From: Prochlorococcus sp. AG-347-J06 | GTDB taxonomy: Bacteria; Cyanobacteriota; Cyanobacteriia; PCC-6307; Cyanobiaceae | Assembly: GCA_003281525.1 (NCBI GenBank) | Contig: QCBT01000002.1 | Location: 62,001 to 126,000 of the forward strand | Length of the DNA: 64,000 nucleotides | Reading direction: 5' to 3' | Shown here: piece after piece, positions 5,570 to 8,373 of the stretch | Layout of the letters: each line of letters opens with the position of its first letter | Position numbering within the stretch: the stretch's first letter is position 1 | Notes under the pieces: generated by a model | Database searches by the model: none | What the model saw: the letters and a program-made list of their open reading frames with translations, nothing else | What the model was told of the DNA's origin: nothing | Translations under genes and position numbers: made by a program

Positions 5570-5652
5570 ACCAAAACGTTCAACTTGCGTATTGCAAGCC
5601 GCAAATCGACTTAAGCCATGGAACGGGGACTTAAGCGAAACCGGAGCTTAAA
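5570..5652 (+). promoter_or_regulatory. Structured 5' leader; candidate Downstream-peptide/glnA (glutamine) riboswitch-like element
   Basis: CGUUC 5577-5581 pairs with GAACG 5621-5625; hairpin CUUGC/GCAAG 5584-5588/5594-5598; UUAAGC (5611-5616 and 5631-5636) can each pair with GCUUAA 5646-5651 next to the GGAG Shine-Dalgarno; immediately precedes a conserved short peptide. Confidence 0.55.
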
Positions 5653-5654
5653 AA

Positions 5655-5756
5655 ATGACTCTAATTTACAGAGGACAAAAATACGTCCAGAACAAAGCAG
5701 CAGCTAAAAAGGAGCACATCGAACTAACTTATAGAGGAAAAGCTTACACAAGCTAG
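5655..5756 (+). CDS. DUF4278-like 'YRG' short peptide (33 aa)
   Basis: MTLIYRGQKYVQNKAAAKKEHIELTYRGKAYTS*; two YRG motifs; GGAG Shine-Dalgarno at 5643-5646; terminator follows. Confidence 0.8.
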   Translation: MTLIYRGQKYVQNKAAAKKEHIELTYRGKAYTS

Positions 5757-5775
5757 TTCATTTATCCAATAAATT

Positions 5776-6038: not shown

Positions 6039-6253
6039 TTTTTTTGGTACTAGACTAGATTTTTTATGGATTAAATTTGTGGAGTCTCTAATAATTATTA
6101 ATAGACATTTATAAATATTTAACTCATCAAAATTAATAAAAATCCCTATATCAATTTCGTTTCTTGAAATAATTTTCAAATCTTTGAATATATGGAATTT
6201 GACTGATATCTTTTGTTCTACTTTTTAAGTTTAATAAAACTGAATAACCCGTT

Positions 6254-6310
6254 GGAGGGGTGGTCGAGTGGTTTAAGGCTCTATTATTGAAAACTATGAA
6301 GTCTCGGTGA
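6254..6310 (+). pseudogene. Degenerate 5' fragment of tRNA-Ser
   Basis: 6254-6283 identical to 7319-7348 (GGAGGGGTGGTCGAGTGGTTTAAGGCTCTA); anticodon stem degenerate, variable/T arms missing. Confidence 0.85.
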
Positions 6311-6493
6311 AATAATTTTTAAGAATCTTTTAAAAAGCATTGATATAAAGCAGATCTTAGTAAGAAAATATTCATAACCAAATTCCCTATATCGCGATAG
6401 TGTGACCACATTTTGGCCAGGCCTTTTTCTTTAAATTAAAACATTAAGTAAAAAAAACTATCCAACTATTATGATCTAATTATTTATAAAAAT

Positions 6494-7183
6494 ATGGAAT
6501 ATCAAGCTCCTCCCGAAGTAATGGAGTTATATAAAAATGAGAGTGAAGGTACATTTTTCAAAGATCATAAATTAATTAGTAGTAATCCAAAAAATTTTAT
6601 TAATGAGGTCACCTCATTTAATAGAAATAGTTATAAAACATTTGGCGCAGGAACTTTTATTAGAGGGAGATGGAACCCTAAACCTTTTGGAGATTGCAAC
6701 GCATGGAGAGGATGTTTTAAAAGATTAGAAGGAGTAAATATTTTTGGTACTTACACAAAAGAGATCTTAAAGAAGGGAGTTTGGAGTTTTGATTATGATA
6801 TTACTGGGATGGTGGGAAGCCAATCTACAAACCAAAATTATCTATATGAAGAAATAGAATATAGCTCAGGCACTTTTGCTGTTTTTGGATTAATCCCAAC
6901 CTTAAGGATAAGTAAACTAGGAAATAAAATACCAATTGGGCTTGGATTAGGCATAGGTCCCTCTTATTCATTAGGTTCAAGAGTTGTTGAGAAACCATAT
7001 AATTTTTCAAAATTATTATCCCAAATAAATGCAGAAGTTAATATCCCTATATCAAAAGAATCTGACACATCTATTGTTTTAGGCTTAAGTCATGTTTGCA
7101 CTTTCCTAGGAATATTAGAAAATGAAGATGGGAAAAGATTCGGTCATCAATGGTACACATTGGGGATTAGAAGAAAACTATGA
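6494..7183 (+). CDS. Outer-membrane beta-barrel-like protein, weakly PagL/acyloxyacyl hydrolase-like
   Basis: Alternating beta-strand pattern (FGLIPTLRISKLGNKIPIGLGLGIGPSYSLGS) and C-terminal LGLSHVCTF...GHQWYTLGIRRKL; no obvious signal peptide. Confidence 0.45.
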   Translation: MEYQAPPEVMELYKNESEGTFFKDHKLISSNPKNFINEVTSFNRNSYKTFGAGTFIRGRWNPKPFGDCNAWRGCFKRLEGVNIFGTYTKEILKKGVWSFDYDITGMVGSQSTNQNYLYEEIEYSSGTFAVFGLIPTLRISKLGNKIPIGLGLGIGPSYSLGSRVVEKPYNFSKLLSQINAEVNIPISKESDTSIVLGLSHVCTFLGILENEDGKRFGHQWYTLGIRRKL

Positions 7184-7318
7184 ATCTACTTTATTTAAAA
7201 TGTTCCTCAAACCTAATTTTTAAGAAAAAATTTATATTTTTATTGCTTGTCAACTTAGGAATCTTAATGCTACTAGATACTGCTATAATTCAAACGTTAA
7301 AACTAAATATTTAACCTT

Positions 7319-7405
7319 GGAGGGGTGGTCGAGTGGTTTAAGGCTCTAGTCTTGAAAACTAGCGTGTCTGCAAGGGCACCGTGGGTTCGAATCCCACCCC
7401 CTCCG
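7319..7405 (+). tRNA. tRNA-Ser(TGA)
   Basis: 87 nt; GGAGGGG/CCCCTCC acceptor, CTTGAAA anticodon loop, long variable arm, GGTTCGAATCCC T arm. Confidence 0.97.
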
Positions 7406-7603
7406 TTGTATAAAACTGACTTTTTCAAAAACTACTCCTAAGGGAGTTTTTTTGTTGCTCTTTATTTTTTACGATAATTCACTAGATTTCGCGTTATTTC
7501 ATGTAATCAGATGAAGAAAAGTGGCACAGATTCGGCACAAACATAAAAGTAAAATTTAGTTGACAATCGATCTAAAATTGGATGGATAAAAACCTCTTTT
7601 TTA

Positions 7604-8095
7604 ATGGATAAAAATTATCGCGGTAATGCAAGTCAATTTTTTATTGCCGGAGAATTATGTAGGAGGGGTTATTCAGCTGTAGTTACTCTTGGAAACACAC
7701 CTAATACAGATATTCTATGTAGTAATTTGGAAGGAACTAAGTTCGTACATATTCAAGTTAAAACTTTCGTGCCAAGTAACAAAACCTGCTCAGTTGGAAT
7801 AAAAGCAGAAAAAAATTATGGGGATAATTTCTTTTGGATTTTAGGAGGTATACCAAGACCTGAAGATGAATCAATTTTCATTTATTACATAATTCCTTCT
7901 CCAATAATGTCTAAAAATGTTTCTAGGATTAATAAAAACTGGTTAGATACTCCTGCGAGAGATGGATCTAAACATAATCCAACAACTATGAGGGCGGTAG
8001 ATATTCCACCTCACAAAATTAGGCAAGAAAATCTTAGATGGGATTTGAGTGAATATGAAAATAGATGGGATTTAATCGACGCCAAACTAAAATAA
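7604..8095 (+). CDS. PD-(D/E)XK-like endonuclease-fold protein, cargo of tRNA-Ser element
   Basis: GNASQFFIAGELCRRGY...NTDILCSN..TKFVHIQVKT: E...D...QVK pattern typical of PD-(D/E)XK/DUF4365-like nucleases. Confidence 0.6.
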   Translation: MDKNYRGNASQFFIAGELCRRGYSAVVTLGNTPNTDILCSNLEGTKFVHIQVKTFVPSNKTCSVGIKAEKNYGDNFFWILGGIPRPEDESIFIYYIIPSPIMSKNVSRINKNWLDTPARDGSKHNPTTMRAVDIPPHKIRQENLRWDLSEYENRWDLIDAKLK

Positions 8096-8232
8096 TGAAA
8101 CGCTTACAAGTTGGATAGAAAAATGAAACGTATTTATTTATCAGTTATTTAAAAATATTAAAGTGGCACAAAAGTGGCAAAATTGTTTCATTAAAACGAC
8201 TAAATGCTTTGATATAACTAAGGATCATCTAA

Positions 8233-8290
8233 TCTTGAAAACTAGCGTGTCTGCAAGGGCACCGTGGGTTCGAATCCCACCCCCTCCGTT
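8233..8290 (+). repeat. Displaced 3' copy of tRNA-Ser (attR-like)
   Basis: 58/58 identical to 7350-7407, starting in the anticodon loop and ending 2 nt after the tRNA 3' end. Confidence 0.95.
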
Positions 8291-8373
8291 CTAATAAAAT
8301 AGCAACTGAAATTCAACCGAATATTTAAACGCCCTTTTGGTACGTTTTTGTTAGGCTTAGTTTTATTTGAACT

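Follow-up and report, generated by a model that had tools for sequence, protein, structure and literature searches.

We found that the tRNA-Ser(TGA) gene of Prochlorococcus sp. AG-347-J06 very probably acts as a two-sided attachment site, at which cassettes of two classes were inserted by crossover in the anticodon loop and which has thereby been left with a working gene that would be wholly element-derived. The window, a stretch of 64,000 nucleotides from an assembly of 1.41 Mb in 51 contigs, was compared with 120 stretches from Prochlorococcus relatives, taken mostly around the match to the tRNA; the 119 loci analysed (118 from relatives and that of the window) all have an intact tRNA-Ser gene. 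This comparison is the basis for the placing of native halves outside and foreign DNA inside, for the crossover interval, for the finding of common ends with different cargo, and for the precise movement of a unit of 166 bp.

The three tRNA-Ser(TGA) copies, their flanks and the crossover interval

The window carries three copies of the gene, all on the + strand: first the 5' fragment, then the whole gene and last the 3' fragment. The native flanks and all cassette features given below lie on the same strand. ARAGORN calls a single intact tRNA-Ser(TGA) in the window (7318-7406), which Rfam RF00005 places at 7319-7405, exactly where the first-pass annotation had put it. Upstream, the copy at 6254-6296 (tRNA positions 1-43) matches the intact gene at 41 of 43 bases, with 30 identical bases followed by two mismatches in 13, in agreement with the earlier reading of 30 identical nucleotides from 6254 and decay thereafter. 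Downstream, the copy at 8228-8288 (tRNA positions 27-87) equals the intact gene without mismatch from 8233 onward, and its left core arm, TCTAAT, has an element-specific base. This second copy had been described as a 58-nt fragment at 8233-8290; the start of its identity stands, but the last two bases (TT) lie outside the gene and the fragment ends at 8288. In dinucleotide-preserving shuffles of the window, the expected number of matches was 0 for the pattern of either copy.

Upon comparison with empty sites, in which a conserved upstream flank directly abuts the tRNA gene and a conserved downstream flank directly follows it, we observe that in the window the upstream flank (6054-6253; 79% over 199 nt to the empty-site flank) directly precedes the 5' fragment, the downstream flank (8289-8373; 84% over 55 nt) adjoins the 3' fragment and not the intact gene, and the latter has foreign DNA on either side. 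Since the native flanks lie outside both fragments, these two pieces represent the original tRNA-Ser gene, one half each. By the same comparison the intact copy is chimeric: a 5'-type cassette supplied its upstream region and 5' half, and a 3'-type cassette its 3' half and terminator. Insertion within a tRNA gene, restoration of the gene and displacement of a fragment, all found here from the flanks, are characteristic of tRNA-targeting integrative elements that use tyrosine recombinases. The first-pass annotation had taken the displaced 3' half for the scar of site-specific integration into a tRNA, and it had attributed the 5' copy to a tandem duplication or an older, unrelated event. The former is correct, as the native downstream flank follows the 3' half, but it is the 5' fragment that borders the native upstream flank, and what precedes the intact gene is a cassette right end found also in other species; tandem duplication of the tRNA is ruled out by the flank comparison, and the picture of a scar plus a duplication retains next to no probability.

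The crossover point was located by positional identity of the recent fragments across loci. For recent 5' fragments, agreement with the intact gene is at least 0.95 through position 39 and drops to 0.59 beyond it; for recent 3' fragments, it holds from position 33 on and is just 0.62 at positions 31-32. The exchange interval is therefore CTTGAAA, tRNA positions 33-39, which lies in the anticodon loop at 7351-7357 (+ strand) and is flanked by the inverted arms CTAGT and ACTAG, an arrangement typical of tyrosine-recombinase core sites. A short crossover core common to both ends, as tRNA-targeting tyrosine-recombinase elements have, is found across many junctions, and both cassettes of the window are joined at the anticodon loop in the manner of tyrosine recombinases. 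Among the site classes recorded for tRNA islands is one centred on the anticodon (PMC4383910).

Ends and cargo of the two cassette classes

The 5'-type cassette of the window measures 1065 bp from core to core, and its body (6297-7318), consisting of a left end, a 229-aa ORF and a promoter-like right end, matches the cassette of locus L087 at 88% throughout. Both of its ends are common to four further loci (L056, L064, L091 and L093), in which the cargo differs. The cargo ORF of 229 aa (6494-7183) belongs to a family present in 3 loci, with relatives in L087 and L042 and another on a 35,649-bp contig of uncultured Prochlorococcus sp. AG-907-P15, and it has no match in Pfam, PHROG or PADLOC. 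In 5'-type elements generally, the right end comprises a promoter-like region and the tRNA 5' half, and several families of right ends recur, some of them similar to the native upstream region. Reading the right end of the window cassette, we find TATAAT at 7284-7289, 29 nt before the intact tRNA, a hexamer that stands at the equal position in about ten cassettes; a consensus scan found no matching -35 element. The motif suggests that the new, cassette-borne upstream region drives the tRNA gene as a putative promoter.

The 3'-type cassette spans 883 bp from core to core, with a body (7406-8227) made up of a terminator, repeats, a 163-aa ORF and further repeats. Its ends are shared with L091, to which the first 213 and last 134 nt are about 90% identical, and with L036, which matches over the first 172 and last 132 nt; the middle has no match in either. 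Elements of this class start at the tRNA 3' half, behind which a terminator is common, and here a terminator scan places an intrinsic terminator, ACTCCTAAGGGAGT with a T run, at 7434-7455, with an equivalent stem in other 3'-type cassettes. Two paired repeats, likewise present in L036 and L091, are putative arm sites: GTGGCACAGATTCGGCACA on the left (7518-7541), with GGCACA twice, 11 bp apart, and GTGGCACAAAAGTGGCA on the right (8160-8183), with AAAGTGGC twice, also 11 bp apart. The 163-aa cargo ORF (7604-8095) is weakly PD-(D/E)xK-nuclease-like (PF11645, E=0.027, below its cut-off), matches phrog_29029 (E=2.7e-6; annotated as of unknown function) and has relatives at 86-88% in two genomes. 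Structure predictions from single sequences gave pLDDT values of 30 and 36 for the two cargo proteins of the window, too poor for use. A 47-bp motif, TTGACAATCGATCTAAA...CCTCTTTTTTAATG, precedes the 163-aa ORF at 7560-7606 and also the cargo of other 3'-type cassettes, as a putative leader or promoter; dispersed partial matches to it occur in most of the 171 genus genomes, of 200, that matched the query. A second match to the locus in the window's own genome, on contig 11, was rejected, as it consists of just a 47-bp dispersed motif with no tRNA nearby.

The sharing of ends with exchange of content recurs across the loci, with 24 pairs of the 5' type and 13 of the 3' type having both ends alike and the middle unlike, in cassettes of up to 2.6 kb. 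Their cargo is mostly one or two genes, encoding a sulfotransferase, MORN repeats, DUF3303, TPR repeats and many products without assignment, and none of 10 cargo proteins matched the PADLOC models. Larger inserts in L074, L062, L099 and L122 contain putative restriction-modification genes, identified by reading alone.

Variation of the locus and recombinases among relatives

The neighbours of the tRNA gene are largely constant, with a long ORF, which we take to be a class II ribonucleotide reductase, followed by ORFs of 88, 64 and 52 aa upstream, and ORFs of 66, 194 and 109 aa, a Tic20-like gene and others downstream. Between them the content varies from empty to more than 9 kb on one side: across the 119 loci, 196 to 9358 bp separate the 52-aa ORF from the tRNA, and on the other side the 66-aa ORF lies 72 to 8934 bp beyond the gene. 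The proposal of the first-pass annotation that the locus is an integration hotspot is thus correct, and the empty sites, larger islands and recombinase that it proposed looking for in relatives were all found; the outcome it named as contrary, a three-copy arrangement fixed without size variation, does not describe a locus that varies from 72 bp to more than 9 kb. Its suggestion of a small relic fails as a whole account of the site, where the same ends with other cargo are found in other species. A Glutamine-II riboswitch was also detected in the window at 5574-5635 (68.8 bits), directly upstream of a small ORF (5656-5757).

Upstream 5' fragments were observed in 53 of the 119 loci and downstream 3' fragments in 19, with both in 13; at 10 loci both sides are empty. 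Roughly half of the set has neither fragment, and some of these loci have foreign flanks, so other events or decay occur too. Where several 5' fragments are present, the outermost is the most decayed in eight of nine cases, as expected if newcomers insert at the intact gene and push older halves outward. In L140 (contig 15 of genome G096) a single contig bears two oppositely oriented copies of the tRNA with its downstream genes, probably a chimera of assembly or amplification.

At 19 loci the upstream insert encodes a divergent tyrosine recombinase of 323-415 aa, oriented away from the tRNA and starting mostly 147-429 bp from it. An alignment of six recombinases, among them the relative from the window's own genome, conserves R, K, DxRH, GHS and Y without exception; weak matches to PF00589 were obtained for five of the six, and the recombinase profile finds XerC- and XerA-like structures. 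Recombinase and 5' fragment occur together in seven inserts of 6.6-9.1 kb, most of which carry VapE-like and Prim-Pol genes and three of which carry a terminase-small-like gene, a gene content also known from phage satellites and tycheposons. Some of the recombinase-bearing inserts on the 5' side look like tycheposons, elements of Prochlorococcus reportedly described by Hackl et al. 2023, and the link to tycheposon-like elements that had been drawn from the window holds through the recombinase and satellite-like genes of these inserts. At the left end, about 45 nt inward from the core, stand paired repeats with a spacing of 11 or 14 bp, and their words, which differ between elements, recur near the recombinase in five of the seven; from this arrangement we infer that they are putative arm sites of the recombinase. 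A 9.1-kb recombinase-bearing insert (L120, 872-10014) has GGACTA as its left repeats versus GTTTCCG as its right ones, as if two elements had fused.

Neither window cassette encodes a tyrosine recombinase, and both can only be non-autonomous members of the tRNA-targeting tyrosine-recombinase elements. No cognate recombinase is present at the locus in the window's genome, in which the sole relative found is 26% identical and 389 aa long (L155, 12503-13672, on contig 5), with no tRNA called by ARAGORN in the 32 kb around it. Among the 119 loci we found no recombinase-bearing 3'-type element with a displaced 3' half. Recombinase relatives were absent from phage records, and among the matches listed between cassette ends and phage records only the tRNA-Ser part was covered.

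The 166-bp unit, proposed cassette mobility and related systems

The smallest unit at the site is non-coding and about 166 bp long, with 31 homologous copies of 164-167 bp, each filling the space from a 5' fragment to the point where the following tRNA begins. It lies directly after the native upstream flank in L046, L068, L075, L094 and L095 and within stacks in L050, L055 and L070. In it the left end of larger elements adjoins their right end, and the GTTCCG or TTTCCG words of the elements in L050 and L070 are present. Upon comparing 25 copies, we find that the distances between units do not follow those between host flanks (Mantel r=0.02, p=0.37). Moreover, the copies in L075 and L083 agree at 166 of 167 positions, and outside the tRNA both sides agree at chance level; the unit therefore moved at the tRNA core, either alone or inside a larger element. 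The evidence for movement is indirect and consists of precise presence/absence along with divergence that is independent of the host.

We propose that tyrosine recombinases cross over within CTTGAAA in the anticodon loop of tRNA-Ser(TGA). An element of the 5'-type class would bring a promoter-like region and a tRNA 5' half, pushing the old upstream region and 5' half outward, and one of the 3'-type class would bring a tRNA 3' half and a terminator, displacing the earlier 3' half in the downstream direction. One element of each class would have integrated in the window, which would make the working tRNA gene wholly element-derived. The small cassettes may be moved in trans by the recombinases of the larger elements at the site. 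It is an even question, argued by analogy, whether the tRNA is the hub of an integron-like system in which recombinase-less cassettes are moved in trans by tycheposon-like recombinases on both sides of the crossover, with promoter, gene halves and terminator all exchangeable; the non-coding unit of 166 bp would then be little beyond an att site, arm repeats, a promoter and a tRNA 5' half.

An alternative is that the small cassettes and the 166-bp units are dead scars, that is, internally deleted tycheposon-like elements that are immobile and inherited with the locus. Such scars would fit a genome that has no cognate recombinase at the site, a unit made of the joined ends of larger elements and the decay of many fragments. 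In addition, no excised circle or attP was seen, which counts against the main reading. However, the 31 copies are alike in length and internal sequence, which points to one family and not to independent deletions; their divergence is independent of the host flank, the near-identical L075 and L083 copies sit between unrelated flanks, and different genes occur between equal cassette ends. We therefore consider dead scars rather unlikely. Spread between strains by homologous recombination through the conserved tRNA and flanks, with no site-specific step, is a far weaker candidate and in our judgement highly improbable. Marine populations do recombine, and the tRNA and its flanks are conserved enough to provide homology, but the flanks around near-identical units show no relationship on either side, even immediately next to the tRNA, and the fragment ends of many independent junctions fall within one 7-base interval.

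When the two-sided cassette site is set against known systems, the resemblance to integron cassettes is by analogy only: in both, small recombinase-less units with common ends and mostly single-gene cargo form arrays, but here the attachment site is a tRNA gene, its halves are cassette-borne and stacking takes place on both sides. Cis-mobilizable elements and ICE-IME accretion arrays are likewise recombinase-less and att-bounded, and a related element, in tandem or acting in trans, is believed to move them; the units described here are far smaller, use both sides of the target gene and have no conjugation genes that we have seen. As described in PMC10872708 and PMC10187409, tycheposons are tRNA-associated Prochlorococcus elements with a divergent tyrosine recombinase, of 4-200 kb (PMC10872708), and seven target tRNAs have been published for them. 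The 6.6-9.1 kb elements upstream of tRNA-Ser are alike in carrying a recombinase and VapE-like, Prim-Pol and terminase-small-like genes, and they fall within that size range, in contrast to the window cassettes of 1065 and 883 bp and the 166-bp units; hallmark genes of the replication and satellite type are present in the larger elements and absent from the window cassettes. Another picocyanobacterial integrase family, distinct from tycheposon integrases, lies upstream of tRNA-Phe or tRNA-Cys with variable islands (PMC10187409), which parallels the present locus in the divergent tyrosine integrase upstream of a tRNA, the variable islands and the genus, but the tRNAs differ.

The Islander collection comprises 3760 islands with a 3' tDNA fragment and 159 with a 5' fragment, 3919 in total, from a search that required an integrase and a size of at least 2 kb (PMC4383910). 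Those islands share with this site the restoration of a split tRNA, a displaced fragment, an anticodon-centred crossover and tandem arrays; unlike them, both kinds of fragment occur here at one tRNA, even in one genome, and 5' fragments outnumber 3' ones. Cassettes of the window's type, being under 2 kb and without an integrase, fall outside that search. Integration into tRNA genes, islands with 5' fragments and tycheposons are already known; in the literature searched, which leaves out the main tycheposon paper, we found no description of sub-kilobase cassettes, of 166-bp units or of two-sided use of a tRNA. Searches for tRNA islands should accordingly cover both sides of the gene and sizes below 2 kb, a range that Islander leaves out. 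The process is open to experiment, as a single site and a single 7-base crossover are involved, the ends are defined and the cassettes are of a size that can be constructed in a laboratory strain. If the proposed mechanism is true, it would account for the way in which a photosynthetic organism that is among the most abundant swaps single genes at a fixed spot without machinery of its own for doing so.
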